Shown here one piece after another: positions 10,519 through 62,934 of a DNA stretch of 64,000 nucleotides (position 1 is the first letter of the stretch; every line of letters begins with the position of its first letter). The position numbers and the translations under genes were made by a program. The notes beneath the pieces were generated by a model, which made no database searches, was not told the DNA's origin, and saw only the letters and a program-made list of their open reading frames with translations. Source of the DNA: Salvelinus alpinus (taxonomy: Eukaryota; Chordata; Actinopteri; Salmoniformes; Salmonidae); assembly GCF_045679555.1 (NCBI RefSeq), contig NC_092087.1:79787305-79851304 (forward strand), written 5' to 3'.

Positions 10519-13500
10519 ATGGTAGTGATGATTGGAATCGCTTTCAGGTAGGTTTTTAAAGTATTGATCTAGTTTGTTTCCCTTGTCCTTCAGGTAGCTA
10601 TGTTTCTAACATACTTTTCCCCCCTAAGAGTTTCTTGGCTTTGTTACCTGCTAATTGGAGGGAATACCTGTTCTACATCAAGTGAGTTTCTACACATTCA
10701 TTTTAAATAACAGTTGTGGTTCCAATAACTTCAAAGAATGGCATTTTACTTTACTTTATTCTAACCTAGGTGATGGGAGTCCTGCACCAGGTTCTGATGC
10801 AGCATGGCTCTATGCAGGCTCACTTAGGTCTAAAGGATATGGTAATTACAACTCTCCAACAGCTCCATTGCAAGCGCAACTGACCGAAGAGCAACAGAAA
10901 CATCTGGCCGCCATCCTACAAAATCAACTGGCCCCCATGCCCCAGGCACCTCAGAAAATGTTGTATCCAGCTCAAATGCCCCAGCAGGAAAAGCAACCGG
11001 CCACCATGACCCAAGAGCAGACTCTACCGGCCAGTTATCCTAAGCAGCCTCAAGCAGTGTTGTATCCAGCTCAAATGCCCCAGAAGCAACCAGCTACTGT
11101 ACTTCAGCATCAGAAGGAACAGGACTCCATACCCCAGAAGCAACCGGCTCCAATGCCTAAACCACAGAAACAACCAATCGCTATGCCCCAGCAAGTATGG
11201 TATCCAGCTCAAATGCAGCAGAAGCAACCAGCCCCAATGCCTCCACCCCAGAAGCAACCGGCCATGTACCAGCAAGTGTGGCATCCAGCTCAATTGCCCC
11301 AGCAGCAAAAGCAACCAGCTACTGAACCTCAGCAGCAGAAGGACCCGGCCGCCATAACCCAGCAACCTCAGCAAGTGTTGCATCCAGCTCAAATGCTGAG
11401 TAAGCAACTGACTGCCATGCCCCAGCAAGTGTGGTATCCAGCTCAAAAGCCCCTGCAGCGGAAGCAACCGGCCGCTGAAGCTCTGCAGCAGATTAAACTG
11501 ACCGCCATGCCCCAGCCTCAGCAAGTGTGGCATCCAGCTCAATTTCCCCAGGAGCAACCAGTCCCTATGCGTCAACTGCAGAAGGAACTGACCGCCATTC
11601 CACCACAACTGTTGCAATCCACTCAAATGCCCCAGCAGCATAAGCAACCGGCTGCCATGCTTCAGCAAGTGTGGCAACCGGCCCCCATTCCCAAGCAGCC
11701 TCATGACGTGTGGTATCCAGCTAAAATGGTACAGAAGCAACAAGCCGCTGCAACTCGGCGGCAGAAGGAACTGACCGCCATGCCCCAGCAAGAGTGGCAT
11801 CCTGCTCAAATGCCCCAGAAGCAACCAACCGCTGAACAGCAGCAGAAGCAACCGACCGCCAAGCCCCAGCAAGTGTGGTCTCCAGCTCAAATGCCCCAGA
11901 AGCAACCTACTGCCTTGGCCCAGCAAGTGTGGACTCCAGCTCAATGTCCCCAGCAGCAGAAGCAACCGGCTGCTGAACCTCAGCAGCAGAAGGAACTGGC
12001 CACCATAACGCAGCAAGCTTTGCATCCAGTGAAAATGCCCCAGCAGCAACAGAAACCGGCCACCATACCCCAGCAGCAACCGACCGCCATGCCCCAGCAA
12101 GCGTGGTATCCAGCTCAAAAGCCCCAGCTGCGAAAGCAACCGGCCGCTGAACTTAAGCAGCAAATTGAACCGACCGCCATCCCCCAGCTACCTCAGGAGG
12201 TGTGTCATCCAGCTCAATTTCCCCAAGAGCAGAAGCAACCAGCCCCAATGCCTTTACCGCAGAAGGAACTGACCGCCATACCCCAGCAAGTGAGGTATCC
12301 AGCTCAAATTCCCCAGCAGCAACTGGCCCCAATGCCTGTAATGCCGAAACAACCAACAGCTTTACCCCAGCAAGCATGGTATCCAGCTCAAATGCCCAAA
12401 CAGCAGAAACAACTGGCCCCAATGCCTCAACCGCAGAAGCAACAGGCCACCATGTCCCCGCAAGTGTGGCATCCAGCTCAAATGCCTCAGCAGCAAAAGC
12501 AACCAGCTACTGAACCTCAGCAGCATATTGAACCGACCGCCATGCCCCAGCCACCTCAGCAAGTTTGGCGTCCAGATCAATTTCCCCAGGAGCAGAAGCA
12601 ACCAGCCCCTATGCATCTACCGCAGAAGGAACTGACTGCCATAACCAAACAACTGTGGCAAACAGCTCAAATGCCCCAGCAGCATAAGCTACCGGCTGCC
12701 ATGCTTCAGCCAGTGTGGTATCTGGCGCAGAAGCAACCGCCCCCTATGCCCCAGCAGCCTCACGACGTGTGGTATCCATCTAAAATGGTCCAGAAGCAAC
12801 AAGTCGCTGCACTGACCGCTAATGCGCAGACGCATCGTCAAGTGTGGCATCCAGCTCAATTTCCCCAGCAGCAGAAGCAACCGGCCTCCACGCCTCCACC
12901 GCAGGAGCAACCGACCGCCGTACCCCAGCAAGTGTGGTATCCAGCTCAAATGTCCCAGCAGCAACTGGCCTCCATGACTCTACCACAGAAGCAACTGACC
13001 GGCATGCCTCAGCAAGAGTGGCAACCAGCTCTAATACCGCAGAAGCAACCGGTTGCTGAATCGCAGCAGAACGAACCGGCCACCATACTCCAGCAAGTGA
13101 GGTATCCAGCTCAAATGTCCCAGCAGCGGAAGCAACACACTGCCATGCTACAGCAGCAACTGACCCCCATGCCTCAGCAATTATGGCATGTAGCTCAAAT
13201 GCCCCAGAAGCAACTGGCCCCAATGTCTCAGCAGAAGCACTACAAAAGCACTGAAGTTGGTACCTCTGGTAGCTCTCAGGCCAGCATCGTTGAACAGTCG
13301 GGTGTCATCCCAATCTATTCCTACAGTTCCAAATCACGCTACGAGAATGGCGGAACTGTCTTCTCCCAAACCCGCTACACTCCTAGGGAGGCTATGCCTG
13401 TTGACAGTGGAAATGCTCCCAATGACAGTGATGTTGGCATATTTGAACCAAGCACATACCCACCACTAGTAAAGGATCCTACAAGGTAACATACAACTTT

Positions 13501-24240: not shown

Positions 24241-24252
24241 ATGTTGTCTTTT

Positions 24253-25002
24253 AGGTAAGTTGTATGGCTCTAGTTTCCATTGTCTTCCATGTTTTACAGG
24301 TAACTGTATTTAACTGACTATGATGTTTTTATTTTTATTTAGAATTTCTTGGATTGTTGCCTGCTAATTGGAGGGATAACCTGTTATCCTCCACCTAAAG
24401 GTGTGTTTTGTTCTGCACATTTAATTCAGTAAAAGTAACACTGTATAAATGGCAGAACTTCAAATGCTGGCATTTTATGATTTGAAACTTTCTTTTCTTT
24501 TGTAGGTAATTATAGATATATTCCCCAAAATCAATTAAAAAGAACTGGCCACAATGCAGCGGAAGCTACCGGCTCCCATATCTCGGCAAGTGAAGCAGCC
24601 ACCCATAATGCCTCAGCAAGCGTCATGACTGGCCCAAATACCTCAGCTGAAGCAGCTGGCCACAGTGACGCGCAAGCGGCCACCCATAATGCTTCGGCAA
24701 GTGTGGCAACTGGCCCAAATACCTTAGGTGACGCAACTGGCCACGGTGCAGCGGAAGCAACTGGACACAGTGCCACGCAAGCGGCCACCCATAATGCCTC
24801 GGAAGCGACCACCCACAATGCCTCAGCAAGCGTCACGACTGGCCCAAATACCTTAGGTGAAGCAACTGTCCACAGGCCCCCTTGCAGGAGGCGCCCTTGC
24901 CGACGCGCCCTTGCCTCGGCAGGGGCCACAGGCGCCCTTGCCTCGGCAGGGGCCACAGGCCTTGAACAGGAGGGCCAACTCCTCAAGCAACATGGATTTT
25001 AG
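24253..25002 (+). pseudogene. Gene B: short type II family member with a broken signal-peptide exon
   Basis: By comparison with E, exon 1 is reduced (atgttgtcttttag before gtaagt). Exon 2 is 24343-24400 and exon 3 starts at 24506. Exon 2 has 58 bases instead of 59 (ggattgttgcc against ggatttgttgcc), which shifts frame. Exon 3 stays fully open for 165 codons in the type II frame ([20 protein letters not shown], several NASASV repeats), with about two 27-bp units, ending [13 protein letters not shown]. Either a recent pseudogene or a sequence error in a short T run. The later tail homology (SSVQGSIVEQSVLVPI) lies in a different frame. Confidence 0.6.
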
Positions 25003-30289: not shown

Positions 30290-31146
30290 TTACATTTTCC
30301 TATTGATAGGTCTATGGTTAGTACAAAGGACTTCAAATTCAGAGCAACGTTCAGAGCAGGTTAAAGTTGCCCATTACCTTGCAGAATCCTTCACTAGTGG
30401 TGGATATATGCTTGGTGCACCAATGCCAACATAACTGTCCTTGGGAGCATCTCCACTGTCAACAGGCATAGCCTCCCAAGGAGTGTAGTGGGTTTGGGAG
30501 AAGACAGTTCTGCCATTCTCGTAGCGCGATTTGGAACTGTAGGAATAGATTGGGATGACACCCGACTGTTCAACGATGCTGGCCTGAGAGCTACCAGAGG
30601 CACCATCTTCAGTGCTTTCGTAGTGCTTCTGCGGAGACATAGGGGCCAGTTGTTTCTGGGGCATTTGAGCTACATGCCATAATTGCTGAGGCATGGGGAT
30701 CAGTTGCTGCTGTGGCATGGCAGTGTGTTGCTTCCGCTGCTGGGACATTTGAGCTGGATACCTCACTTGCTGAGGTATGGTGGCCGGTTCGTTCTGCTGC
30801 GATTCAGAAACCGGTTGCTTCTGCGGTATTTGACCTGGATGCCACATTGCTGATGCGTTTGACAATTTGCTGCTGAGGTTCAGCGGCCGGTTGCTTCCAC
30901 AGCTGGGGCTTTTGAGCTGGATACCATGCTTGCTGGGGCATGGCGGTCGGTTGCTTCCACAGCTGTGGCTTTTGAGCTGGATACCACACTTGCTGGGGAA
31001 TGGCGGTCGGTTGCTTCTGCGGTTCAGCGGTTGGTTGAAAGTCTGTTATAAACATAGCTACCTGGAACACCTGAAGGACAAGGGACACAAACTAGATCAA
31101 TCCTTTTAAAAATCTACCTGAAAGCGATTCCAATCATCACAGCCAT
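30290..31146 (-). pseudogene. Pseudogene C: shortened inverted copy of gene A (type I)
   Basis: The promoter block and exon 1 (atggctgtgatgattggaat, giving MAVMIGIAFR, from 31146) are kept, but exon 2 and the start of exon 3 are deleted, so the signal peptide is lost. Only a few repeats remain (QQVWYPAQKPQLWKQPTAMP). A deletion near 30,865 breaks the repeat frame. The last part is open (30865 down to 30374) through SIVEQSGVIPIYSYSS and YENGRTVFSQTHYTPWE, with the final intron and stop kept. It is in the same frame as gene A and clearly its paralogue. Confidence 0.75.
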
Positions 31147-34026: not shown

Positions 34027-34074
<48 letters not shown>

Positions 34075-34115: not shown

Positions 34116-34249
34116 ATGGGAAATAGATATCAACAGAGGCATGTGACAGTACAATAACTGTCTGTAGATATAGTCTGGTTATATGACTGAACATGAAAGG
34201 CTAATAATACAAAGACGTGATGGCAAGGTGTAGTTTTAACAAGGCTGGA

Positions 34250-34725
34250 TTAAATCTTGTGTAAATTTGCTGTCGAAGTATTTGTAATGCGAGTCAAGCA
34301 GGTGATTTCTGATGGAAATTTTGGCCGGATGCTTATGCCGAGTCATTGTGCCTGGTTGCTTCTGCTGCTGAGGTACGAGAGCCGGTTGCTTCACCTAAGG
34401 TATTTGCGCCAGTCGTCACACTTGCTGAGGCATTGTGGCTGGTTGCTTCTGCCGAGTCATTGTGGATGGTTGCTTCTGCTGAAGAGGCATGCGAGCCCGT
34501 TTCTTTTGTTGCTGGGACATAGGAGTAGGTTCCTTTTAATGAAGTGTGGAGAATATATCTATAATTTACCTAGGAAACAAAGTCAAAAAGTTCAAATTAG
34601 TAAAATGCCAGAATTTGAAGTCATTGGAACTATACAAATGCTGTTTTATTTTACTTAATGAATTTGTGTATAACAAACAGCTTTAGGTGTAGGATAACTG
34701 GTTGTCCCTTGAATAAATAGATCAA
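34250..34725 (-). pseudogene. Fragment F1 of the repeat-gene family (type II-like)
   Basis: On the minus strand the 3' half of exon 2 (gttatcctacacctaaag) lies at about 34,685-34,706. The start of exon 3 (gtaaattatagatatattct) is at about 34,557-34,576, followed by a few repeats. The reading frame is closed early, the exon 2 donor is lost, and the gene is cut off after about five repeats. One stretch still reads in the type I frame (QQQKKRARMPLQQKQPSTMT). Confidence 0.6.
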
Positions 34726-34847
34726 TTGAAGGTCAGCATTCTCATAATATGCAGTTAGTGAATGATTTCAGCAACAGTACTTGGTTTAGAAAAATGTACA
34801 TGTTCAAAGACGATCTGTTGTGTGTAGAGAATATTTGAGTTAATTGA

Positions 34848-40010: not shown

Positions 40011-40011
40011 T

Positions 40012-40547: not shown

Positions 40548-42619
40548 CTAAAATCCATGTTGCTTGAGGAGTTGAACAGGAGGGCCAAGGCCTGTGGCTC
40601 CTGCCGAGGCAAGGTGGCCTGTGGCTCCTGCCGAGGCAAGGTGGCCTGTGGCTCCTGCCGAGGCAAGGGCGCCTGTGGCTCCTGCCGAGGCAAGGGCGCC
40701 TGTGGCTCCTGCCGAGGCAAGGTGGCCTGTGGCTCCTGCCGAGGCAAGGGCGCCTGTGGCTCCTGCCGAGGCAAGGGCGCCTGTGGCTCCTGCCGAGGCA
40801 AGGGCGCCTGTGGCTCCTGCCGAGGCAAGGGCGCCTGTGGCTCCTGCCGAGGCAAGGGCGCCTGTGGCTCCTGCCGAGGCAAGGGCGCCTGTGGCTCCTG
40901 CCGAGGCAAGGGCGCCTGTGGCTCCTGCCGAGGCAAGGGCGCCTGTGGCTCCTGCCGAGGCAAGGGCCCCTGTGGCTCCTGCCGAGGCAAGGGCACCTGT
41001 GGCTCCTGCCGAGGCTTTTGAACCAGATTCCGCACTTGATGAGGCAAAGTGGCCGGTTGCTTCACCTAAGGTATTTGGGCTAGTCGTGGCGCTTGATGAA
41101 GCACTGTGGCCAATTGCTTCAGCTACGGTATTTGGGCCAGTCGTGACACTTGCTGAGGCATTATGGGTTGCTGCTGAGGAACGGGAGTCGGATACTTCAC
41201 CCAAGGCATTTGTGCCAATCGTGAATTTTGATGAAGCATTGTGGCCAGTTGCTTCCCCTAAAGGTATTTGGGCCAGTCGTGACACTTGCTGAGGCATTGT
41301 GGGTGGCTGCTTCCGAGGCATTACGGGTGGCCGCTTGCGTGGCACTGTGTCCAGTTGCTTCCGCTGCCGAGGCATGGTGGCCAGTTGCTTCCGAGGCACT
41401 GTGGCCATTTGCTTCACCTAAGGTATTTGGGCCAGTCCTGACGCTTGTTGAAGCATTGTGGCCAGTTGCTTCACCTAAGGTATTTGGGCCAGTCGTGACG
41501 CTTGCTGAGGCATTATGAGTGGCCGCTTCCGAGGCATTACGGGTGGCCGCTTGCGTGGCACTGTGTCTAGTTGCTTCCGCTGCCGAGGCACCGTGGCCAG
41601 CTGCTTCACCTAAGGTATTTGGGCCAGTCGTAGCGCTTGATGAAGCATTGTGGCCAGTTGCTTCAGCTAAGGTATTTGGGCCAGTCGTGACACTTGAAGC
41701 ATTGTGGCCAGTTGCTTCACCTAAGGTATTTGGGCCAGTCGTGACACTAGCTGAGGCATTGTGGGTGGCTGCTTCCGAGGCATTACGGGTGGCCGCTTGC
41801 GTGGCACTGTGTCCAGTTGCTTCCGCTGCCGAGGCATGGTGGCCAATTGCTTCCGAGGCACTGTGGCCATTTGCTTCACCTAAGGTATTTGAGCCAGTCG
41901 TGAGGCTTGTTGTAGCATTGTAGCCAGTTGCTTCACCTAAGGTATTTGGGCCAGTCGTGACGCTTGCTGAGGCATTATGGGTTGCCGCTTGCGCGGCACT
42001 GTGTCCAGTTGCTTCCGCTGCCGAGGCACTGTGGCCAGCTGCTTCACCTAAGGTATTTGGGCCAGTCGTGGCGCTTGATGAAGCATTGTGGCACGTTGCT
42101 TCAGCTAAGGTATTTGGGCCAGTTGTGATGCTTGCTGAGGCATTGTGGGTGACTGCTTCTGCTGCTGAGGCACGGGATCCGGTTGCTCCACCTAAGGTAT
42201 TTGCGCCAGTCGTGACGCTTGCTGAGGCATTACGGGTGGCTGCTTCACCTGCCGAGGCACGGGAGCCGGTAGCTTCCGCTGCATTGTGGCCAGTTCTTTT
42301 TAATTGATTTTGGGGAATATATCTATAATTACCTACAAAAGAAAAGAAAAAGTTTCAAATCGTAAAATGCCAGCATTTGAAGTTCTGCCATTTATACAGT
42401 GTTACTTTTACTGAATTAAATGTGCAGAACAAAACATACCTTTAGGTGGAGGATAACAGGTTATCCCTCCAATTAGCAGGCAACAAATCCAAGAAATTCT
42501 AAATAAAAATAAAAACATCCTAGTCAGTTAAATACACCTACCTGTAAAACATGGAAGACAAGGGAAACAAACTAGAGCCATACAACTTACCTCAAAGACA
42601 TTTCAAAACTCACTGCCAT
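40548..42619 (-). pseudogene. Gene D: type II repeat gene, one-base frameshift compared with E
   Basis: Exons by homology with E are 42591-42619 ([10 protein letters not shown]), 42440-42498 ([19 protein letters not shown]) and from 42332 down. The type II frame ([20 protein letters not shown] repeats) is open until 41,260-41,262, where D has cctaaagg and E has cctaagg. The extra A shifts the frame into an early stop. Further on there are 16 copies of a 27-bp unit and a 17-base inversion (40,572-40,588). The A run is short and the two copies are nearly identical, so sequencing error is possible. The long plus-strand frames ([18 protein letters not shown]) are shadows. Confidence 0.65.
40589..41020. 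repeat. 27-bp coding minisatellite in gene D, 16 copies
   Basis: The unit is ggctcctgccgaggcaaggg plus cgcctgt. Counting GSCRG in one shadow frame gives 16 units. The unit length is divisible by three and has no stop in any of its six frames, so all frames stay open across the tract. E has 18 units and B about two. Confidence 0.9.
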
Positions 42620-44912: not shown

Positions 44913-45244
44913 TTTGAGTGCTACTGCATGGTAGACAAGAGATTGTCTGACAACACAGAATTTACATATTTTACATAAAAGCAGACCATTGAATGCATAT
45001 ACAATTTCGTCACGTGTCATGAGTCTTTAGCCAAACAGGCAGTCGACTACAGCAGGCAAATGTGTTCATTTGTGTCAATGTTTGTGAATGAGTTCCATGT
45101 GACACATTATGCTAGCTAAGCTTCCCTGCTAGTTCCTTGCCGGCTTCATCATTGGAACTGGATGGATCCATTTAAGGTCTGAGTTCTCATACTATGTAGT
45201 TAGATGATTTCACCAAACAAATCTTGGTTTAGAAAAATGTACTT
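44913..45244. other. Spacer, no gene seen
   Basis: It matches 21,393-21,700 inverted and, more diverged, 28,930-29,170. Confidence 0.5.
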
Positions 45245-47589: not shown

Positions 47590-47930
47590 GGTATTTGTAA
47601 TGCGAGTCAAGCAGGTGATTTCTGATGGAAATTTTGGACGGTTGCTTCTGCCGAGTCATTGTGGACGGTTGCTTCTGCTGAAGAGGCATGCGAGCCCGCT
47701 CCTTTTGTTGCTGGGACATAGGAGCAGGTTCCTTTTAATGAAGTGTGGAGAATATATCTATAATTTAACAAAGACAAAAAACAAAGACAAAAAGTTCAAA
47801 ATAGTAAAATTCCAGAATTTGAAGTCATTGGAACTATACAAAAGCTGTTTTTTTTCAACTTAATTAGTTTGTGTATAACAAACAGCTTTAGGTGTAGGAT
47901 AACAGGTTGTCCCTCCAATGAATAGATCAA
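47590..47930 (-). pseudogene. Fragment F2 of the repeat-gene family
   Basis: A shorter, diverged copy of F1: exon 2 remnant (gttatcctacacctaaag) near 47,890-47,910, then a shortened exon 3 with a few repeat units (QQQKERARMPLQQKQPSTMT). It lacks the longer repeat segment seen in F1. Confidence 0.55.
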
Positions 47931-48049
47931 TTGAAGGTCAGCATTCTCATAATATGCAGTTAGTGAATGATTTCAGCAACAGTACTTGGTTTAGAAAAAT
48001 GTAGATGTTCAAAGACGATCTGTTGCGTGTAGAGAATATTTCAGTTAAT

Positions 48050-51000
48050 TGACATATTCCCAACCAATTGTGTTTTTTGTTCGTTTCTTGAGTTGTTTGG
48101 AACTTATTTTTTTTACTTATTTTGTACATAATGTTGCCGCTACCATCTCTCATGACCAAAAATAACTTCTGGACATCAGAACTGCGATTACTCACCACGG
48201 ACTGGCAGAATCCTTTTTTTTTCTTTAACAAATCCGACAAGCCCGACGTGAATGACATACTGCTTTTCCGGGAACAGGCCCAGATCCCCGTGATTTGTGT
48301 GAAGAGAAGGTGGAGAAAAAGTGGCCAGAGGCTGGTCTGCCTTCTGAGAATTAGTAGGCGATCGAATAAACCCCCACTTCCTTCCATTCTGCTAGCAAAC
48401 GTGCAGTCTTTGTAAAGTAAAATAGATGACCTACGCGGAAGATTAAACAACCAACGGGACATTCAAAACTGTAATATCTTATGCTTTACGGAGTCGTGGC
48501 TGAACGACGACATTATCAACATACAGCTGGCTATCCGGCAGGATAGAACAGCGGCGTCAGGTAAGACAAGGGGCGGTGGACTATATATTTTTGTAAATAA
48601 CAACTGGTGCACGATATCTAAGGAAGTCTCGAGCTATTGCCCTCCTGAGGTAGAATATCTCACGATAAGCTGTAGACCACACTATCTACCTAGAGAGTTT
48701 TCATCTGTATTTTTTGTAGCTGTCTACATACCAACACGGACTGAGGCTGGCACTAAGACCGCATTGAATGAACTGTATTCTGCCATAAGCAAACAGGAAA
48801 ACGCTCACCTGGAGATGGCGCACCTAGTAGCCGGGGACTTGAATGCAGGGAAACTTAAATCCATCTTACCAAATTTCTATCAGCATGTTAAATGTGCAAC
48901 CAGAGGGAAAGAAACTCTGGACCACCTTTACTCCACACACAGAGACGCATACAAAACTCTCCCTCACCCGCCATTTGGCAAATCTGACCATAATTCTATC
49001 CTCCTGATTCCTGCTTACAAGCAAAAATTTAAGCAGGACACACCAGTGACATGATCAATAAAAAAGTGGTCAGATGAAGCAGCTGCTAAGCTACCGGACT
49101 GTTTTACTAGCACAGACTGGAATATGTTCCGGAATTCCTCCAATGACATTGAGGAGTACACCACGTCTGTCATTGGCTACATCAATAAGTGCATCAATGA
49201 CGTCATCCCCACAGTGATCGTACGCACATACCCCAACCAGAAGCCATGGACTACAGGCAACATCTGCACTGAGCTAAAGGCTAGAGGTGCCGCTTTCAAG
49301 GAGCGGGACGCTAACCCGGAAGCTTATAATAAATCCCGCTATGCCCTCCGACAAACCATCAAACAGGCAAAGCATCAATACAGGACTAAGATCAAATCGT
49401 AGTACACCGGCTCTGACGCTCGTCGGATGTGGCAGGGCTTGCAAACCTTTACAGACTATAAAGGGAAACACAGCCGAGAGCTGCCCAGTGACACGAGTCT
49501 ACCAGATGAGCTAAACTACTTCTATGCTCGCTTCGAGGCAAATAACACTGAAACACGCATGAGAGCAAAAGCTGTTCAGGAAGACTGTGTGATCACGCTC
49601 TCTGCAGCCGATGAGTAAGACCTTTAAACAGGTCAACATTCACAAGATCGCAGGGCTTGACGGATTACCAGGACATGTACTGCAAGCAGGTGCTGACCAG
49701 CTGGCAAGTGTCTTCACTGACATTTTCAACCTCTCCCTGTCCGTAATACCAACATGTTTAAAGCAGACCACCATAGTCCCTGTGCTCAAGAACACTAAGG
49801 TAACCTGCCTAAATGACTACCGACCCGTAGCACTTACGTCTGTAGCTATGAAGTGCTTTGAAAGGCAGGTCATGGCTCACATCAACACCATTATCCCAGA
49901 AACCCTAGACCCACTCCAATTTGCATACCGCCCTAACAGATCCACAGATGATGCAATTTTATTGCACTCCACACTGCCCTTTCCCACCTGGACAAAAGAA
50001 CACCCATGTGAGAATGCTATTCTTTGACTACAGCTCAGCGTTCAACACCATAGTGCCCTCTAAACTCATCAATAAGCTAAGGACCCTGGGACTAAACACT
50101 TCCCTCTGCAACTGGATCCTGGACTTCCTGACTGGCTGCCCGCAGGTGGTAAGGGTAGGTAACAACACATCCACCACACTGATCCTCAACACAGGGGGCC
50201 ATCAGGGGTGCGTGCCCAGTCCCCTCCTGTACTCCCTGTTCACTCATGACTGCATGGCCAGGCACGACTCCAACACCATCATTAAGTTTGTCGACGACAC
50301 AACAGTGGTAGGCCTGACCACCGACAACGGCGAGACAGCCTATAGGGAGGAGGTCAGAGACCATGCCATGTGGTGCAAGGACAACAACCATTCCCTCAAC
50401 GTGATCAAGACAAAGGAGATGATTGTGGACTACAGGAAAGAGAGGACCGAGCATTCCCCTATTCTCATCGACGGGGCTGTACTGGAGCAGGTTGAGAGCT
50501 TCAAGTTCCTTGGTGTCCAAATCACCAACAAACTAACATGGTCCAAGCACACCAAGACAGTCGTGAAGCGGGCACGACAAAACCTATTCCCCCTCAGGAG
50601 ACTGAAAAGATTTGGCATGGGTCCTCATATTCTCAAAATGTTCTACAGCTGCACCATCGAGAGTATCCTGACTGGTTGCATCACTGCCCGGTATGGCAAC
50701 TGCTCAGCCTCCAACTGCAAGGCACTACAGAGGGTAGCGTGAACGGCCTAGTACATCACTGGGGCCAAGCTTCCTGCCATCCAGGGCCTCTATACCAGGC
50801 GGTGTCAGTTGTGTCAGGCCTTAAAAATTGTCAAAGACTCCAGCCACCCTAGTCATAGACTGTTTTCTCTGCTACCGCATGGCAAGCGGTACCGGAGCGC
50901 CAACTCTAGGTCCAAGAGGCTTTTAAACAGCGTCTACCCCCAAGGCATAAGATCCAGAACATCTAATCAAACGGCTACCCAGACTATTTGCATCCCCCCC

Positions 51001-51302
51001 TTTACACCGCTGCTACTTTCTATGGTTATCATCTATGCATAGTCACTTTAATAACTCCACCTACATGTACATATTACCTCAACTAACCGGTGCACCTGCA
51101 CATTGACTCTGTACCCCCCTGTATATAGTCTCGCTATTGTTATTTTACTGCTGCTCTTTAATTACTTGTTACTTTTATTTCTTATTCTTATTCATATTTG
51201 TTTTTAACTGCATTGTTGTTTAGGGGCTCGTAAGTAAGTGTTTCACTGTAAGGTCTACACCTGTATTCGGTGCAATTGACTAATAAAATTTGATTTGATT
51301 CC
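48050..51302 (+). mobile_element. Rex1-type LINE in unit 2, inactive
   Basis: Equivalent of 34,848-38,100, with a few substitutions (for example LEMAHLVAG for LDMALLVAG, and an extra stop near 49,402). It was inserted before the unit duplicated. Confidence 0.85.
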
Positions 51303-51596
51303 TACCTATAACTACATCTAAAGTATGAACATACTGTATGAGTAAGGTCTGACATTTCCCCACTGGACATTGACCATGTTAACATGAGCACAGCAGTCTG
51401 GATTGTAGCTCATATCCCACATACGGTCTTATTCGGGATGAGCTCTTTACATGCATTTTGATATCCCGCTCATGAGTATCCCTGTATCCATGAATAAACA
51501 GAATATTCCTCATTTAAGTGTATGGGTTAAATGGAATAGTAACTGAAATATGGACACTGACGGCAGGACTATGCACGCGAGAGGGTAGCTCCAGGT

Positions 51597-52285
51597 CATC
51601 TATAAATCTATGCTAGGTTAAGCTCCGCCTTATCTCAGCTCAATGGTCACGATAACAACACCCACCCGTAGCACACGCTCCAGCAGGTATATCTCACTGG
51701 TCGTCCCCAAAGCCAACACCTACTTTGGCCGCCTTTCCTTCCAGTTCTCTGCTGCCAATGACTGGAATGAATTGCAAAAATCGCTGAAGTTGGAGACCTA
51801 TATTTCCCTCACTAACTTTAAACATCAGCTATCTGAGCAGCTTACCGATCGCTGCAGCTGTTCACAGCCCATCTGTAAATAGCCCATCCAATCTACCTAC
51901 CGCATCCCCATATTGTTTATATTTACTTTTCTGCACACCAGTATTTCTACTTGCACATCCTCATCTGCTCATCTATCACTCCAGTGTTAATTTGCTAGAG
52001 TGGGGTAACATCTCACAGCAAGAACTGGCAAATCTGGTACAGTCCATGAGGAGATGCACTGCAGTACTTAATGCAGCAGGTGGCCACACCAGATTCTGAC
52101 TGTTACTTTTGATTTTGTCTCCCCCTTTGTTCAGGGACACATAATTCCATTTCTGTTAGTCATGTCTATGGAACTTGTTCAGTTTGTCTCAGTTGTAGAA
52201 TCTTATGTTCATACAAATATTTACACGTTAAGTTTGCTGAAAATAAACAGGTGACAGTGAGAGGAAGTTTCTTTTTTGCAGAGTT
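51597..52285 (+). mobile_element. LINE 3' fragment joined to a Tc1 3' remnant (unit 2)
   Basis: Equivalent of 38,396-39,080. The small frames here encode the LINE C-terminus only. Confidence 0.75.
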
Positions 52286-53215
52286 TATTAACTTCAGTTG
52301 CAGTGAAATGATAAAAATGTATCTTTACATTGTCTTGGGAACAGGAGTGGATATATATTTCTATCAGCGTCTCAGGGAAAATGCGAATGGACGTGTAATG
52401 TGCAAGCAGACAGCATTTCAACCACATAAAATACACACCCAAGACTAACTGAAGTAACAATTCTCAGCTTTCCATTTCCTTAAAATCTGTCAGAATTACA
52501 TTTGGCACAGGACCAATGTTTCCACTGTGTTCTAGCATGCTACCTGGTCCTTAATTTTACCTGTTAAGATTACTAATGCATTCATTCTATCAACGTAAGA
52601 CATTTGTGAGCACTACTTTAGTCTTCTGAGGCAACAAGTTATGACAGAAGAGAAGCTGCATGTATGAAACTATAGTTGACAAATGGCCTACCTAATGTAA
52701 GCAGAAACCTGTCTAAATTAGGGGTGAAAGTAGCCATTAAGCTCAGTTATGGTGGATCAAACTGAGCAGGTAGCCCACTTTAAATTGATTTGTTTGAGAG
52801 TCAGACAACCATGAGATACGAAACGGAGCCTGTGCATACCACAAAAACAGAATTCAGAGGTTTACATGCCACAGTAGCCCATCTCCGGGGTACAAGCTTT
52901 CTCAGGTTTTTGTAAAACAGGATTTGATGTTTACATGTCAACACAAAATAAATACTTCAGTATCCCGAGTAACGGAATATTGATGTAAACGTGGTCAGTG
53001 GCTTTAACGTAGATCCAATCTTGGGATTTGTCAACCAGCAGCAAAGATACAAATAAATTATATATTTGAAATCCAAAAGATTAGGAACTGTGAACCACAT
53101 TCCCTTTTACTACAAATTGCAATGGCAACTAACACTGTTCTCAACCAGCAAGCCAAAGGTAGACATTAAACACAGTATTTCAAAACACAAGGAGGCACTT
53201 TTAAAGGTACAATAT
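52286..53215. other. Spacer downstream of gene E, no gene seen
   Basis: Equivalent of 39,081-40,010. Plus-strand frames here are antisense shadows. Confidence 0.5.
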
Positions 53216-53751
53216 TTTATTGTTTTACAAGTAATGCAGGGTAGCATGAGCAGCAGCAACTCTCTGTCCGACGCAAAAGCATACAGTGGAAGCTTAAAGT
53301 GTCAGCAACAACTCAGAATTGTTATCCAAAGGATGAATCTACCATTGCAATTCTGTTGATAGATGATTAGTACAAAGGATTTCAAAATCAGAACGCAGTT
53401 CAGATGACTGTAAAAAAATTTACATGACATTGCATCCCAGTAGCTGTTCCCTTGTGGTGGGGTTCCTTTAGCAGGTTGTCAGTTTTTAGCAGGTGGGGAT
53501 ATGCTTGGTTCAGAGATGCCAACGTCACTACGGTCCTTGAGAGCATCTCCGCTATCAAAAAGGTATAACCTCCCCAGTGGTGTGGCAGGTTTGGGAGTAG
53601 ACAGTTTTGCCATTCTCATACACCGATTTGTAACTATATTGGGATGAGAATTGGCTGTTCAAAGATGCTGCCTTGAACGCTGCTGGAGCTGACACATTGG
53701 GTGCTTTCATTGTCACCGTCAGACCCAAAATCCTGAGAAACATCACTGCTG
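53216..53751 (-). other. 3' tail and untranslated region of gene E with poly(A) signal
   Basis: AATAAA lies at 53,221-53,216 on the minus strand. The family tail (SSVQGSIFEQPILIPI, then YSYKSVYENGKTVYSQTCHT in another frame) lies downstream of the stop of the repeat frame and would be untranslated unless the frame changes or splicing joins it. Confidence 0.55.
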
Positions 53752-55828
53752 CTAAAATCCATGTTGCTTGAGGAGTTGGCCCTCCTGTTCAAGGCCTGTG
53801 GCTCCTGCCGAGGCAAGGTGGCCTGTGGCTCCTGCCGAGGCAAGGTGGCCTGTGGCTCCTGCCGAGGCAAGGGCGCCTGTGGCTCCTGCCGAGGCAAGGG
53901 CGCCTGTGGCTCCTGCCGAGGCAAGGGCGCCTGTGGCTCCTGCCGAGGCAAGGGCGCCTGTGGCTCCTGCCGAGGCAAGGGCGCCTGTGGCTCCTGCCGA
54001 GGCAAGGGCGCCTGTGGCTCCTGCCGAGGCAAGGGCGCCTGTGGCTCCTGCCGAGGCAAGGGCGCCTGTGGCTCCTGCCGAGGCAAGGGCGCCTGTGGCT
54101 CCTGCCGAGGCAAGGGCGCCTGTGGCTCCTGCCGAGGCAAGGGCGCCTGTGGCTCCTGCCGAGGCAAGGGCGCCTGTGGCTCCTGCCGAGGCAAGGGCGC
54201 CTGTGGCTCCTGCCGAGGCAAGGGCCCCTGTGGCTCCTGCCGAGGCAAGGGCACCTGTGGCTCCTGCCGAGGCTTTTGAACCAGATTCCGCACTTGATGA
54301 GGCAAAGTGGCCGGTTGCTTCACCTAAGGTATTTGGGCTAGTCGTGGCGCTTGATGAAGCACTGTGGCCAATTGCTTCAGCTACGGTATTTGGGCCAGTC
54401 GTGACACTTGCTGAGGCATTATGGGTTGCTGCTTCTGCTGAGGAACGGGAGTCGGATACTTCACCCAAGGCATTTGTGCCAATCGTGAATTTTGATGAAG
54501 CATTGTGGCCAGTTGCTTCCCCTAAGGTATTTGGGCCAGTCGTGACACTTGCTGAGGCATTGTGGGTGGCTGCTTCCGAGGCATTACGGGTGGCCGCTTG
54601 CGTGGCACTGTGTCCAGTTGCTTCCGCTGCCGAGGCATGGTGGCCAGTTGCTTCCGAGGCACTGTGGCCATTTGCTTCACCTAAGGTATTTGGGCCAGTC
54701 CTGACGCTTGTTGAAGCATTGTGGCCAGTTGCTTCACCTAAGGTATTTGGGCCAGTCGTGACGCTTGCTGAGGCATTATGAGTGGCCGCTTCCGAGGCAT
54801 TACGGGTGGCCGCTTGCGTGGCACTGTGTCTAGTTGCTTCCGCTGCCGAGGCACCGTGGCCAGCTGCTTCACCTAAGGTATTTGGGCCAGTCGTAGCGCT
54901 TGATGAAGCATTGTGGCCAGTTGCTTCAGCTAAGGTATTTGGGCCAGTCGTGACACTAGCTGAGGCATTGTGGGTGGCTGCTTCCGAGGCATTACGGGTG
55001 GCCGCTTGCGTGGCACTGTGTCCAGTTGCTTCCGCTGCCGAGGCATGGTGGCCAATTGCTTCCGAGGCACTGTGGCCATTTGCTTCACCTAAGGTATTTG
55101 AGCCAGTCGTGAGGCTTGTTGTAGCATTGTAGCCAGTTGCTTCACCTAAGGTATTTGGGCCAGTCGTGACGCTTGCTGAGGCATTATGGGTTGCCGCTTG
55201 CGCGGCACTGTGTCCAGTTGCTTCCGCTGCCGAGGCACTGTGGCCAGCTGCTTCACCTAAGGTATTTGGGCCAGTCGTGGCGCTTGATGAAGCATTGTGG
55301 CACGTTGCTTCAGCTAAGGTATTTGGGCCAGTTGTGATGCTTGCTGAGGCATTGTGGGTGACTGCTTCTGCTGCTGAGGCACGGGATCCGGTTGCTCCAC
55401 CTAAGGTATTTGCGCCAGTCGTGACGCTTGCTGAGGCATTACGGGTGGCTGCTTCACCTGCCGAGGCACGGGAGCCGGTAGCTTCCGCTGCATTGTGGCC
55501 AGTTCTTTTTAATTGATTTTGGGGAATATATCTATAATTACCTACAAAAGAAAAGAAAAAGTTTCAAATCGTAAAATGCCAGCATTTGAAGTTCTGCCAT
55601 TTATACAGTGTTACTTTTACTGAATTAAATGTGCAGAACAAAACATACCTTTAGGTGGAGGATAACAGGTTATCCCTCCAATTAGCAGGCAACAAATCCA
55701 AGAAATTCTAAATAAAAATAAAAACATCCTAGTCAGTTAAATACACCTACCTGTAAAACATGGAAGACAAGGGAAACAAACTAGAGCCATACAACTTACC
55801 TCAAAGACATTTCAAAACTCACTGCCAT
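53752..55828 (-). CDS. Gene E: secreted Ala/Thr/Ser/Asn-rich tandem-repeat protein (type II family member), complete frame
   Basis: Three coding exons on the minus strand, 55828-55800, 55707-55649 and 55541-53752, with GT/AG junctions in phases 2 and 1, give 625 residues. Exons 1-2 form a signal peptide ([24 protein letters not shown]). Exon 3 begins [20 protein letters not shown]. About 19-residue repeats of the type [19 protein letters not shown] follow, with at least 15 NAS/NAT glycosylation sequons. Then come 18 copies of a 9-residue unit (ASAGATGAL) and the end [14 protein letters not shown]. The upstream Met at 55837 is also possible; the chosen one aligns with A and C. Function unknown: the composition suggests a heavily glycosylated secreted protein. 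The alternative Pro/Gln frame is closed by about one TAG per long repeat. Open plus-strand frames are shadows. Confidence 0.7.
53793..54274. repeat. 27-bp coding minisatellite in gene E, 18 copies
   Basis: Same unit as in D but 18 copies, two more than D. Read on the coding strand it gives the 9-residue unit ASAGATGAL. Most central units are identical, which fits recent expansion by unequal exchange or slippage. Confidence 0.9.
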
Positions 55829-56226
55829 TATTCTCATCAAAACCTCAGTATTCAGAACTAATAGTAGCCAGAAGCCTTACCAGGAGATCCCTGATATTGT
55901 ATCTGATTGTCTTTTTTGCTGCGCCTTACAAAGGAATCCTAGACCCTTCTAATCTGGCTGGTTAATTAGGTACACCTGCAAGCCACTGAACATAATTTCC
56001 ATTGGTCCAATTTCCCAATTGAGATTAGGTTCGCTTGATTTCATTCAGCTGGTGTGCTGGAGGGTTTGCGCATCATGGACAAATCCAATGGTTTTAAAGA
56101 GTGAACTCTACCTACCCATTGCACTGTGTGAGCTTAATCAAGTGCACCTTTATTTCATGCTAATTAAGATCCTGCCAGGGGCTTTTGCAGGTGCAACCTC
56201 AGTGGTCCGGTAGAAGTGTGTTGTGC
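55829..56226 (-). promoter_or_regulatory. Promoter-like and upstream region of gene E
   Basis: Equivalent of 42,620-43,017, with the family block attagaagggtctaggattc near 55,937-55,957 and the leader block before the ATG. Confidence 0.45.
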
Positions 56227-58130
56227 AAAGATATATTTTAGATTTTTCAAAGTAGCCTCACTTTGCCTTGATTACAGATTTGCACACTCTTGGCATTCTC
56301 TCAACCAGCTTCATCTGGAATGATTTTCCAACAGTCTTGAAGGAGTTCCCACATTTGCTGAGCACTTGTTGGCTGCTTTTCCTTCACTCTATGGTCCAAC
56401 TCATGCCAAACCATCTCAATTGGGTTGAGGTCGGGTGATTATGGAGGCCAGGTCATCTGATGCAGCACTCCATCACTCTCCTTCTTGGTCAAATAGACCT
56501 TACACAGTCTGGAGGTGTGTTGGGTCATTGTCCTATTGAAAAACAAACGATAGTCCCACTAAGCGCAAACCAGATGGGATGGCGTATAGCTACAGAATGT
56601 TGTGGTAGCCAGTGTACCTTGAATTCTAAATATATCACAGACCGTGTCACCAGCAAAGCACCCCCACACCATTACACCTCATCCTCCATGCTTCATGGTG
56701 GAAACCAGACATGCGGAGATCATCCGTTCACCTACGGGGGTTGGTCTTGTTTTGGTTACTACATGATTCCATATGTGACTCACCACCTGGATTCGGTCTT
56801 ATGTAGTAAAATGTGAAATGGTGTTTTTTTACATCTGCTAAAAGTAGAGACTCAGAGCTACAAAATGGTATATCATACACAGCATTTGAGGAACAATGGG
56901 AAAGTACTTCTGCTTTGAAAGTTGATCAACATTTAATCTCACTTTTGAGAAAATCCCCTTTGAATGTTTTGGTATCTAGTTTAGAGCTCTTCTTTGTCTA
57001 CACCCATTCAGCATCGTTCACACCCTCTTAATAAGCTTTAGCCCCACCCATCTTGTTTCGCTTTCAGAGCACACACTTGACGCTCTGGCCGATGATTTGT
57101 TTACCTCTGGGTAACATGAAAACAGCCTAACCAGTTCTGCTGAAAACAATTTCATGACGCTTTCTTGCAGACGTTTACTGACACCGGCCATATTCAACGG
57201 GTGTTGTACACACGTCACGTAGCGTTAGCTAACGAGCCAGCCAGCTAACGTTAGCTAGTTAAACAACAATGAACAAAGTGGCAACAATGCCACAGTGCTG
57301 GGAGCTAACCAACCAGGTCCAATGTTAGCTAGCTAACATTAGGCTCTAACTAGACAAGCAAACGGCTCTGGGAAACAAATAATAACGTCAGCTAGGGAAC
57401 CAGCCAGCTAACAGTACACTTTAGCTTGAAATGAAACCACTTTGTCAAAATTAGAAATGTGTCATATCTGAAAATGTAGTTAGCTAATGCTAGACTATAA
57501 ACATGCATCATGGACGCGTCTCCCTGTCAGGAATGCCATACCACGGTTGCACGGTTTGAAGATGTAATCCGGAGACAGGTGTTTTCTCCATCTCTTTAGC
57601 TATCATACTCCAATTCCACTGAAAACGGAGAGCAACACTTATGCAGCTCCACTATACAAAACATTTTTTTTTAAAGCGGCGTTCGACGGTATTACCAAAA
57701 AAGACTGACGAGCACAAATAGACAGACAACTTCAATATGGCAGACCAATCCGAACTCCTCTCTCTGCATGTCCAGCCCACTCATTATCTCAGACAATCAT
57801 GGCTAGTGAGAAGTTTGCTTACTTTTACTGTGGCTTAACCAGCAAGGCTCATAATTTAACAATTGTATTTGTATTTACAGATGGCATACATGTTTGTTAT
57901 TAAGGCACATGAATGTTCGCAAGTTCGAGAAGGATATTCTGCCAAGAAACGCATTTTGATTTTTACGTTCAAACGGCTCTCCTGTGAAGTTGTGACTTGC
58001 GACATACGCCTAGTTTCCTGAATCGGGTCACATATGTGTTATTTCATAGTTTTGATGTCTTCACTATTATTCTACAATGTAGAAAATAGTAAAAATAAAG
58101 AAAACCCTTGAATGAGTAGGTGTGTCCAAA
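56227..58130 (-). mobile_element. Degenerate Tc1 split by the 1.24-kb insertion (unit 2)
   Basis: Equivalent of 43,018-44,912. It keeps an extra acgcgtctcc near 57,515 that unit 1 lacks but the copy near gene B has (gggagacgcgtccatgatgc). Unit 1 has therefore lost those bases. Confidence 0.7.
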
Positions 58131-58462
58131 TTTGAGTGCTACTGCATGGTAGACAAGAGATTGTCTGACAACACAGAATTTACATATTTTACATAAAAGC
58201 AGACCATTGAATGCATATACAATTTCGTCACGTGTCATGAGTCTTTAGCCAAACAGGCAGTCGACTACAGCAGGCAAATGTGTTCATTTGTGTCAATGTT
58301 TGTGAATGAGTTCCATGTGACACATTATGCTAGCTAAGCTTCCCTGCTAGTTCCTTGCCGGCTTCATCATTGGAACTGGATGGATCCATTTAAGGTCTGA
58401 GTTCTCATACTATGTAGTTAGATGATTTCACCAAACAAATCTTGGTTTAGAAAAATGTACTT

Positions 58463-59355
58463 GTTCTTATTTTTTTTATTTTACCTTTATTTAACCAGTT
58501 AGGTCAGTTGAGAACAAGTTCTCATTTACAACTGCGACCTGGCCAAGATAAAGCAAAGCAGTGCGACAAAAACAACCACACAGATACACATGGGATAAAC
58601 AAACGTACATTCAACACAATAGAAAATCTGTATACAGTGTGTGCAAATTAAGTAAGGAGGTACGGCAATAAATAGGCCAATAGTGGCAAAGTAGTTAAAA
58701 TTTAGCAATTTACACTGGAGTGATATATGTCCAGATGAGGATGTGCAAGTTGAAATACTGGTGTGCAAAAGAGCAGAAAAACAAAAACAAATATGGGGAT
58801 GAGGTAGGTAGTTGGTTGGATGGGCTATTTACAGATGGGCTGTGTACAGCTGCAGCGATCGGTAAGCTGCTCTGACAGCTGACGCTTAAAGTTAGTGAGA
58901 GAGACATAAGTCTCCAACTTCAGTGATTTTTGCAATTCGTTCCAGTCATTGGTAGCAGAGAACTGGAAGGAAAGGTGGCCAAAGCAGGTGTTGGCTTTGG
59001 GGATGACCAGTGAAATATACCTGCTGGAGCGCGTGCTAGTGGTAGGTGTTGCTATGGTGACCAGTGAGTTGAGATAAGGCGGAGCTATACCTAGCAAAGA
59101 CTTATAGATGACCTGGAGCCAGTGGGTTTGGCGACGAATATGTAGCGAGGACCAGCCAACGAGAGCATACAGGTCTCAGTGGTGGGTAGTATATGGGGCT
59201 TTGGTGACAAAACGGATGGCACTGTGATAGACTGCATCCAATTTGCTGAGTAGAGTGTTGGAGGCTATTTTGTAAATGACATCACCGAAGTCAAGGATCG
59301 GTAGGATAGTCAGTTTTACGAGGGTATGCTTGGCAGCATGAGTGAAGGAGGCTTT
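58463..59355 (-). mobile_element. LINE 3' fragment (unit 2)
   Basis: Equivalent of 45,245-46,135 with the same breakpoints. Confidence 0.75.
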
Positions 59356-60199
59356 GTTGACATTCTGTTGTCTGTTTGGGAATATCTTTGTGTATTGATA
59401 GGTTAAACCGTTCCAGGCATTGTAAAAATCAAGTACACTGAATCCATTTTTTAAGACCCTGTGGTACGATAAATGGACTTGCAGGAGGAATGAGCTATAG
59501 GTTAAAAATCTATTGACGCTCATGTGAATCAATAAAGGAAACAACAAAAAAATTATAAATTTAAGCTATAAATTCTATCCATCTTCTTACAAAAGCATTT
59601 GTGACGTCTGAACGGTTTGGCCTACAAACTATTATGACCAATATGGAAAGGGGAGACTCACGAACATGGTTCCGTTTTGCTCTACGACCCCAACAAGTTT
59701 CACAGACTCATCTGAAGGTAACCCATACAAACTAATGGAAGTATGGAGGTAGTTGTACCAACATACATAAAGGGTTAAATATGTGCCATCACCTAGATAT
59801 TGGACATACGTCAAAACTTTGCCATTTATAAAAAGGTGTTATTCAATGTGTTTCTGTGGGCTATAGTAGCAAAGGCAAAATTCTATATTGCGATTAAATG
59901 TTGATACCTAAAGTGTCCCAAAAATTCATACAGCTAATTGATCATGGTTTGAACGTTTAAAAGATGTTAGCTTAGTACTCTGCCTAAGGCTCAGACTGAC
60001 ATTGAAGAATAAGTCTGGATTGTCAACACAGTGTACATATGTCAAGTAGTCCAAAAGTTTTGGGTGACATCTTATGCTAGCTAAACTTCCATGATAGTGC
60101 CTACCAGCTTCCTCTTTGGAACTTAATGGACCCATTTAAGGGCTGAATTCTCATACTACGCAGTTAGATTAATAATTGGTTAAGAAAAATGTACAAGGC
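59356..60199. other. Duplicated spacer up to the gap, no gene seen
   Basis: Equivalent of 46,136-46,980. Ends abruptly at the run of Ns. Confidence 0.55.
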
Positions 60200-60299
60200 N
60201 NNNNNNNNNNNNNNNNNNNNNNNNNNNNNNNNNNNNNNNNNNNNNNNNNNNNNNNNNNNNNNNNNNNNNNNNNNNNNNNNNNNNNNNNNNNNNNNNNNN
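60200..60299. other. Assembly gap of exactly 100 N
   Basis: A run of 100 undetermined bases, a conventional placeholder for a gap of unknown size. Sequence on the two sides belongs to different parts of the repeated unit. Confidence 0.95.
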
Positions 60300-60972
60300 A
60301 TCTCTCCCTCGGGCATGAGCCATTTCATGTCTGACACGCCGTCGTAAATGCCCACCCGGGGAAGGTCACGTGACATCAGGCCGAAGTAGCACAGAGATTT
60401 TTCATTGGACTTCACCCTGTTTACCAGCACAAACAGGAACTGTGAAAAATAAATCATAGTTATGTTCAGTAGGGCACAACGTAGCAAAACATTCTGCAAC
60501 CAAAACTAAAATCTGTGGTTTTATTGGACGAGACCAATGTCAAAAGTAGTTCAATATATATATGAATTTTGTTGATGGGCAGTTCCTTATCTCCTGCATT
60601 TGGTAAGGGTTTTCTCAGTTCACAGAGCAGTTCAAAACATCTGACTCCAATTAATCAATTTACAAATTCAATTCAAGCTGCAATTAAAGAGTTGATTCAA
60701 AATAACTTGTTCCAAATAGTGGATTAGGGACATTATCTTAAGATCTGAATCAAATAGCCAATATAATAGAGGTTTTGGTGAGTCGCTCTTTTCAGGTCCA
60801 GTAGCTGCTTGCCTGCTCTCACCTTTTCAACGAATTATGGGGCCAGAGCTCCTGACCTAGCCGGTCCTTGAGCACTTCATAGTCACCACTCCCCCTGTTG
60901 ATGAAGAGCAGGATGTGCCCCTTCACCTCTGACTGGTACAGACCGTCAGTCCGTCCGTCTGTCTGTGTGTGT

Positions 60973-61020
<48 letters not shown>

Positions 61021-61670
61021 AAGAGAAAGACAAAGACAAAGACAAAGAGAAAGACAGAGGTATGGGAAATAGATATCAACAGAGGCATGTGACAGTACAA
61101 TAACTGTCTGTAGATATAGTCTGGTTATATGACTGAACATGAAAGGCTAATAATACAAAGACGTGATGGCAAGGTGTAGTTTTAACAAGGCTGGATTAAA
61201 TCTTGTGTAAATTTGCTGTCGAAGTATTTGTAATGCGAGTCAAGCAGGTGATTTCTGATGGAAATTTTGGCCGGATGCTTATGCCGAGTCATTGTGCCTG
61301 GTTGCTTCTGCTGCTGAGGTACGAGAGCCGGTTGCTTCACCTAAGGTATTTGCGCCAGTCGTCACACTTGCTGAGGCATTGTGGCTGGTTGCTTCTGCCG
61401 AGTCATTGTGGATGGTTGCTTCTGCTGAAGAGGCATGCGAGCCCGTTTCTTTTGTTGCTGGGACATAGGAGTAGGTTCCTTTTAATGAAGTGTGGAGAAT
61501 ATATCTATAATTTACCTAGGAAACAAAGTCAAAAAGTTCAAATTAGTAAAATGCCAGAATTTGAAGTCATTGGAACTATACAAATGCTGTTTTATTTTAC
61601 TTAATGAATTTGTGTATAACAAACAGCTTTAGGTGTAGGATAACTGGTTGTCCCTTGAATAAATAGATCA
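60300..61670. repeat. Copy of 33,354-34,720 (PDI-like exons, GA run, fragment F3)
   Basis: Every feature sits at a constant offset of 26,946 with identical translations and an identical GA microsatellite. It includes the two PDI-like exons (about 60,300-60,446 and 60,820-60,946) and family fragment F3 (about 61,196-61,670). The match ends abruptly at aatagatcaa. It is either a very recent duplication or the same locus assembled twice. Confidence 0.85.
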
Positions 61671-62934
61671 AAAGACACAGAGCCTGCAATGGCATTACCA
61701 TAATCTCTAGGCTGTGCCGAGTTCAACGAGATGCCCAGCCTGATCGTAGCTAGCTCGGTCTGAGCTCAGCAACCATGAAAAAAGTAGGCCCATAATGAAG
61801 CCTGGCCCTAAATTGCAGGTGCTTTTGGGTGACAGCGGGAGAACAGTTAGGGTTAGAAGCACAATTCGACCTCAGAAACATTCCTGCGGTCCTCCCGATC
61901 TGTGCAAGCCTAACCTTGACCATGTGGCATTAACTCTTAACAGTGAAAACAGTATTTTTTCTCTCCCCATAGGAATACATTGCCTTCTCCTCTAAATTTA
62001 ACCTGAAGCCTATGTGGGTTATGAATGCCTTATGAACCTGTCTTCGATAACAATCCATCAGGCCCCTATGAGGTCTACCTGTGTCGACTCTAAAGCAACC
62101 GGAAGTGGTTAAAATCACTCTAAAAGTGTTTTGCCATACCCAACCTGCAGTTTGAGAGAAATAGTGCATTCAACCCTGTGTAAATCAGTCAGTTCTTAAC
62201 GTAAAGACTTAAAACTCAGGATTCTGTAAAAGCATACCCCATTCAGGATGTGTTTACTTTTAGCTTCCTGTGCCAACCGGAAGTGCCATAATTGGGGTCA
62301 AAGGGGCTGTTTCGAAGGGTTAAAACAGTCAGATCTTTCCAAAACTTCATGTGAGATTAGGCAGCCCTCATGAACTGTAAATCAGTCATTCATCCCATCA
62401 GATTTCCAAGAAAAACTCACACACAAACAGCAAGGATGGAGTGACACATTGTGGGGCTTAGAGACACGGAGCCTGCAATAGTTACCTTTGTTCAAACTAT
62501 CAAAGAACCGTTAGACCTAGAGCTCTGAAACTTTAGAAGCCCGTTATATAGCTCAGGTCGATAGTGCACGGTGCGTTATGTGGCTCTAGAACGTTCTCAG
62601 ACCGAGAAACAACCTCGTACATTTGCAATAACTTCAATTCATTTTGACCATTACAGAAAAGTCCCAGAGTCGCAAGACTAGATGCATTGAAATCTCCTCG
62701 GCCCATAGAGACGGACCCCAACGTTTCTGTCCAGTAGCTCTTTCAAGGATCCCGTAGCAACGCCCGGAAAAAGTGGATTTTCAGCACCAATTAAGGTCGT
62801 TGCTCGGGCTCCAAAGGACCTATCGAGCCGAAACTTGGGATTCGAGGTCGCCTCAGCTAGGCCTACACATAATGTCAGAACTGGACCCGCAGCTAGATAG
62901 TAACTACGTGTTATATGTTTTTATTATGGTTTAA
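61671..62934. other. Unclassified repeat-like sequence, no gene seen
   Basis: It starts aagacacagagcctgcaatg and contains a related phrase again near 62,463 (agacacggagcctgcaatag), so it has internal repetition. I recall similar text as dispersed salmonid DNA but cannot name the family. No long frame. Confidence 0.4.

Follow-up and report, generated by a model that had tools for sequence, protein, structure and literature searches.

Heavily glycosylated peptides in tandem define the hyosophorins of fish eggs and the salmonid polysialoglycoproteins (PSGP), according to two papers (PMC3528131, PMC9630641), and the former describes the PSGP repeat as a 13-residue glycopeptide. An apopolysialoglycoprotein transcript is listed among gonad-specific genes of Atlantic salmon in one table of PMC11202266, an entry that is not tied to the C2 or C8 loci treated here. 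Frameshifting in the history of a repeat protein is described for the antifreeze glycoprotein gene of cod, the origin of which, in the account of PMC8622921, included tandem duplication and a frameshift mutation. No work on two-frame reading in the repeat family described below was found when the literature was searched by title, and no mention of the Pfam family DUF1373 was found in the literature searched.

The window, a 64,000-nucleotide stretch of the 2.37-Gb genome of Salvelinus alpinus (C2:79787305-79851304), holds paralogous genes for which an earlier note had observed that one tandem repeat is read in two different frames. This observation is confirmed by our analysis, and the finding proves to be larger than was stated, in that it concerns a large gene family within the same genome. 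The members appear to be probably secreted, repeat-filled proteins encoded by the same repeated DNA in two reading frames. Judging from sequence, we regard it as probable that they form a single family of secreted repeat proteins, the array of which has been moved between two frames by an insertion or deletion ahead of it.

Genes A and E and the offset between their frames

Gene A lies on the forward strand, with exon 1 at 10519..10547 (start of the signal peptide, ending in phase 2), exon 2 at 10629..10681 (signal peptide, ending in phase 1) and exon 3 at 10770..13489, which contains repeats in the Pro/Gln frame followed by a DUF1373-like tail and the stop codon at 13487-13489. Gene E lies on the reverse strand, with exon 1 at 55800..55828 (start of the signal peptide, MAVSFEMSL, ending in phase 2 before a GT donor), exon 2 at 55649..55707 (signal peptide, ending in phase 1) and exon 3 at 53752..55541, in which 57-, 24- and 27-base repeats run in the E frame to the TAG at 53752-53754. 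The signal-peptide exons of the two genes are homologous and identical in phase, as had been claimed, and exon 3 of E extends from 55541 to its stop codon exactly as described before, with an E frame of 596 codons from 55542 down, or 603 from stop to stop (53752-55563). Splicing of the three exons would give a predicted E product of 625 aa that is rich in Ser, Thr, Ala and Asn.

The two readings part within 10841..10935 (forward strand) of A. By eye, Gly-Asn-Tyr is read in both genes (A 10841-10849; E 55534-55541 together with the last base of exon 2), and past it A and E differ by unequal lengths up to the repeats. The 27-base array within exon 3 of E (53794..54273, reverse strand) reads GATGALASA in the E frame and is uninformative on frame, because open reading frames cross it in all six frames. 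A Pfam match of this array to collagen (PF01391; 29.8 bits, cut-off 27.2) was set aside as an effect of composition, glycine not being found at every third residue. Beyond the E-frame ORF, the stretch 53492..53751 (reverse strand) is homologous to A's coding tail; relative to the repeats it keeps to the A frame, and it is broken by stops. The 3′ ends of A, E and four C8 genes (those printed in full) are alike by eye, with AATAAA in each, and the 3′ part of A gives one 89-base match at 74% with that of a C8 gene.

The frame offset was determined with the first 1266 bases of E exon 3 as query, i.e., the part ahead of the 27-base array, and with HSPs accepted at E-values up to 1e-3. The E repeats match exon 3 of A in 42 HSPs (2631 aligned bases, summed over overlapping HSPs), and in all 42 the two genes are read one base apart, the offset being taken at the start of each HSP. 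The best alignment scores 50.0 bits, and none of 20 dinucleotide shuffles exceeds 31.0. E stands at a one-base offset also to the A-type gene L009 (7670 of 7703 bases), as does A to L032, the one C8 gene put to this test (1290 of 1355 bases), and L032 and E share the same frame in 28/28 HSPs and 6416/6416 summed bases. The repeats had been said to align base for base; they are homologous, and they are not identical, since the best E-A alignment reaches only 70%. Likewise, the 20-mer quoted earlier for E has three exact matches in E, and the one quoted for A has none in A exon 3.

In E, the A-type frame is closed by 12 TAG and one TAA codon, in line with the previous description, and the hexamer exchange given there is borne out by the counts: CCTTAG is found 11 times in E and never in A, CCCCAG 31 times in A and never in E. 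These stops bear directly on the suggestion that a different exon 2-exon 3 junction puts E in the Pro/Gln frame. The TAA is located about ten codons into exon 3, so that a junction near the start of the exon gives no long Pro/Gln product, TAG then follows in most of the long repeats to make 13 stops in total, and no supporting point was found for such a junction, which we consider extremely improbable.

Further copies in the window and across the genome

Additional copies and remnants are present in the window. Gene D (40548..42619, reverse strand) is a near-copy of E in which the E frame yields only 407 aa owing to a one-base insertion at 41262, and it differs from E by too few substitutions for a codon test. 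Gene B (24241..25002, forward strand) is an E-type copy, the exon 3 of which (24506-25002) is open in the E frame for 164 codons, as the earlier note held; its signal exons are broken, with a 15-base deletion in exon 1 and a one-base deletion in exon 2 at 24354. Gene C (30374..31146, reverse strand) is an A-type remnant with exon 1, a short Pro/Gln array and the tail, for which no match to exon 2 was found. Fragment F (34300..34709, reverse strand) is an old E-type remnant of the start of exon 3, and is found again at 47600-47919 and 61270-61655.

Several other features of the window were recorded. A cluster of differences between E 53779-53789 and D 40575-40585 is consistent with a short inversion close to where the array ends, and the copy L026 carries the D form. 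Positions 34432-46981 and 47631-60199 constitute a tandem duplication with 98.3% identity over 12.6 kb; 100 N occupy 60200-60299, and 33354-34725 equals 60300-61671 exactly, and an assembly error is possible at this duplication. Long ORFs resembling reverse transcriptases and a Tc1-like transposase were seen by eye at 1234-4200 (reverse strand), 5984-8752 and 16915-17985 (both forward strand).

Four DNA queries were run against the genome, namely two 5′ parts, which found at least 35 and 40 places, the A tail, which found at least 28, and the 5′ part of a C8 gene, which found at least 40. The family places listed are on C2 (79.44-79.86 Mb) and C8 (8.17-8.28 Mb), plus one on C10, an isolated 80-base match at 95% to a C8 gene region (G000:C10:51887012-51887091).

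Three gene groups are observed. When the acceptor is picked by longest ORF, which for L011 means an unusual acceptor, 12 of the 14 modelled A-type copies on C2 reach a common C-terminal end in the Pro/Gln frame; L020 ends shortly past the tail core and L021 breaks ahead of it. With the usual acceptor, the Pro/Gln frame is obtained in 10 of 11 A-type copies and the E frame in L011. The E-type copies on C2 number ten, of which six are intact in the E frame and terminate at the same stop codon, namely E (625 aa), L022 (660), L023 (724), L015 (542), L016 (518) and L026 (408). Broken are D and L024 (common one-base insertion, 407 aa), L025 (58 aa) and B (exon 2), and nine of the ten have the full-length 29-base exon 1, which is shortened in B. 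This count leaves aside the F fragments, an exon-3 piece in L017-L019, and L038, in which the E frame shifts and then runs into unrelated sequence. On C8, each of the eight genes has similar signal exons followed by an exon 3 that is open in the E frame over 158-308 codons; in L030, L031 and L032, exon 3 is also stop-free in the Pro/Gln frame, for 157, 306 and 300 codons.

Probable use of the E frame

The E frame had been presented as coding partly on the ground that it is open for 596 codons. This argument is weak, given that the unused E-type frame is open for 669-767 codons in four Pro/Gln genes (L009, 689; L010, 669; L013, 750; L014, 767), and openness was rejected as proof of coding; elsewhere among the A-type copies, the longest run of the unused E-type frame is 102-151 codons in A, L015b, L016b, L017 and L020, and 462 in L012. 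An array is open in two frames because its repeat unit is open in two frames, and its open codons are non-independent, which makes the family a warning against taking a long open frame in an array as more than weak proof of coding. A lack of stop gains in the E frame (0/75, with 1.8 expected) was likewise dropped as support, the units having been drawn solely from intact E-frame ORFs.

Gap lengths are observed directly, with the proviso that gaps of one unit are multiples of three regardless of selection and that gaps and mismatches within arrays are non-independent. In exon 3, the ten E-type copies, intact and broken alike, have 41 distinct gaps, of which 34 have a length divisible by three; in the flanks and exons 1-2 of these copies, this holds for 2 of 17. 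Pairwise comparison of the six intact E-type copies gives 119/119 in exon 3 vs 0/41 in the flanks, a result that is favoured by the selection of intact copies. The corresponding values are 118/154 (36 gaps not being multiples of three) vs 35/174 for the C8 genes, and 673/710 vs 49/329 for eight A-type copies.

Substitutions between groups point in a similar direction. When six of the eight C8 genes were compared with E, the third positions of the E frame were most divergent in five, the columns being non-independent; in these five, third positions diverge by 0.33-0.43 and first positions by 0.12-0.32, the margin in L030 being merely 0.008 (0.325 vs 0.317), and in L031 third and first positions tie at 0.302. 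Amino-acid identity is highest in the E frame of the three frames in five of the six, the exception being L036. Between A on the one hand and E (four comparisons) or C8 genes (three) on the other, the position that is wobble in neither frame is the least divergent in 7/7, narrowly in two.

Within the E-type group, the substitution tests give no clear selection on the E frame. Six pairs have E-frame pN/pS values of 0.75-1.05, and reading the same DNA in the A frame yields 0.69-1.31, the E frame being lowest of the three in three of the six; ratios at the level of repeat units are 0.72 and 0.83, and 13 self-comparisons of E range over 0.46-1.60 in the E frame. Seven of seven substitutions between the first part of B exon 3 and E change the E-frame amino acid, as counted by hand in a copy that is broken. 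Pairs of C8 genes give 0.60-1.69. The A-type genes have pN/pS values of 0.34-0.72 in their own frame in six of seven usable pairs and 1.14 in A-L017, with the own frame lowest of the three in five of the seven; these ranges omit the pairs L011-L012 and L011-L013, which aligned out of frame, and L018, L019 and L021, which entered the A-type modelling, stand outside the comparison. On these sequence comparisons, the A-type genes show some constraint in their own frame.

These observations have to be weighed against the view that the E-type copies on C2 descend from Pro/Gln genes as pseudogenes in decay, and that their E frame is open only because the units of the array happen to lack stops in it. 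Such decay would agree with the four broken copies out of ten, with pN/pS near 1, with the up to 767 open codons in the unused E frame of A-type genes and with the decayed tail DNA of E. Against it stand six copies that have kept signal exons, phases and a common stop codon intact, the excess of exon-3 gaps in multiples of three (34/41 vs 2/17 in the flanks), and the C8 genes, all eight of which are in the E frame and five of the six compared being most divergent from E at E-frame third positions. We judge the pseudogene view unlikely and coding use of both frames likely, with translation of the E frame as a prediction.

The explanation that we hold to be probable, i.e., movement of the array between frames in one secreted family, would operate as follows. 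Members have similar 5′ flanks and two signal-peptide exons, followed by a long exon 3 made up of tandem repeats, the units of which are multiples of three in length; homogenized arrays of such units are stop-free in more than one frame and hence offer a long ORF in a second frame from the outset. The signal exons are separated from the array by a short unique stretch, and an insertion or deletion there would shift the whole array to the other frame. The A-type genes would encode a Pro/Gln/Lys-rich protein with a tail, and the E-type genes on C2 and the C8 genes a Ser/Thr-rich protein, with many potential N-glycosylation sites in the E type. In the E-type genes, TAG codons in the Pro/Gln frame would have spread with the repeats, thereby blocking return. 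Repeat units without stops in a second frame may provide a concrete, one-step route to a long and immediately open new protein.

Direction of the proposed switch and likeness to known systems

A tree of the 5′ regions (33 rows) separates the A, E and C8 groups and joins A with E at a support of 96/92; with 24 rows and L038 included, the support is 91/90. The root is provisional, being placed at the midpoint. In the outlying copy L027, exon 3 starts in the E frame, for 30 codons by eye, and a root on the long L027 branch implies that the Pro/Gln frame arose later, from an older E frame. We lean towards the E frame as the older one; from the 5′ tree this is at least as likely as the opposite, and the direction of the switch may be the reverse of that proposed in the earlier note. 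The frame-switch interpretation given there is partly supported: homologous arrays in different frames are found behind homologous signal exons, and in whole gene groups, and the designation of E as the new protein is not shown.

The opposite order, in which the Pro/Gln frame and the tail are ancestral and a single frameshift gave rise to the E-type, C8 and outlying copies, appears doubtful to us, with less than even probability. It draws on the tail of A, which matches the C-terminal part of DUF1373 (33.6 bits, positions 84-144) in the frame of the A signal peptide, a match found only in the A type, and on the remains of that tail in E, which are broken and keep the register of the A frame. 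Against Pfam, the tail of E gave no family, neither E nor C8 gave a DUF1373 tail match, and the tail of L009 scored 28.3 bits, just below the cut-off of 28.9. A tree with E and C8 constrained to one clade, as a single frameshift would have it, is not rejected (p-AU 0.088). The best trees, however, join A with E and have a midpoint root outside both, and C8 and L027 start in the E frame. Moreover, the whole exon 3 of A matches no Pfam family, and a cut-down A and the 90-residue A-type N-terminus reach 24.4 and 22.8 bits with DUF1373, both below the cut-off.

DUF1373 (PF07117) as a whole was rejected as a judge of the frame first used. Pieces of E and C8 match its N-terminal part with 32.7 and 35.4 bits (cut-off 28.9), and with shuffled middles the scores are like the real ones (33.1 vs 32.5 and 37.8 vs 38.4 bits). 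As the middle of the profile does not distinguish real from shuffled sequence, only the signal part is informative; taken alone, with 42 residues of E, it gives 25.4 bits, short of the same cut-off.

A candidate for a second switch is L011 (C2:79466400-79473400), which has a two-base deletion just past GNYKSP (TCTCCAAAATCTC vs TCTCCAATCTC). With the usual acceptor, its A-type array is in the E frame for 485 codons (EATDRRAPASVASSSNAPAA...), with one N-x-S/T site, and its nearest kin in the 5′ tree is L012 (93/93). The two bases are situated in a run of A. L011 could have truly switched, could be a pseudogene or could owe its frame to an error of assembly. With homogenized units lacking stops in two frames, a single small indel before the array would switch the type of protein, and we tentatively propose, at somewhat below even odds, that the unique stretch before the array is a site of recurrent switching between Pro/Gln-rich and glycoprotein-like products, used at least twice (the A/E split and L011), with one repeat DNA serving two selected proteins in one cluster. 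The family is of value in this regard for its many near-copies on both sides of the switch, together with one apparently fresh switch in L011.

By analogy, the closest known system is the hyosophorin/polysialoglycoprotein system of fish egg cortical alveoli, with which the family shares signal exons, and thus predicted secretion, and in-frame tandem repeats, here of 57, 24 and 27 bases; the family proteins are perhaps fish egg proteins. The units here are 8, 9, 11 and 19 residues long, unlike the 13-residue repeat given for PSGP in PMC3528131. Ser and Thr account for 27% of the E product, which has 15 N-x-S/T sites in its own frame and one in the A frame. The six intact E-type copies have 24-27% Ser+Thr and 5-15 such sites, the C8 genes 19-25% and 1-4 sites, and ten A-type copies read as Pro/Gln have 0-1 sites and 23-28% Gln. 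These sites can be due to chance, because the same ten A-type copies have 2-11 of them in the unused E-type frame, and glycosylation is accordingly to be read as a prediction. As for the A proteins, their richness in Gln and Lys might allow transglutaminase to cross-link them within the egg coat.

Three short words of the PSGP repeat are absent from the family loci examined, and alignments to that repeat are weak, with 34-39 bits among the best matches listed, one of them on the wrong strand of an A-type gene. The C8 units (NATSEATGPSASAEATGP) are similar to the PSGP repeat, a lead only, in view of their low complexity.

The antifreeze glycoprotein of cod, a secreted repeat glycoprotein with a frameshift in the origin of its gene, resembles the present family as it is interpreted here. 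According to PMC8622921, the cod gene arose from non-coding DNA, whereas in the family described above sister genes seem to make use of both frames.
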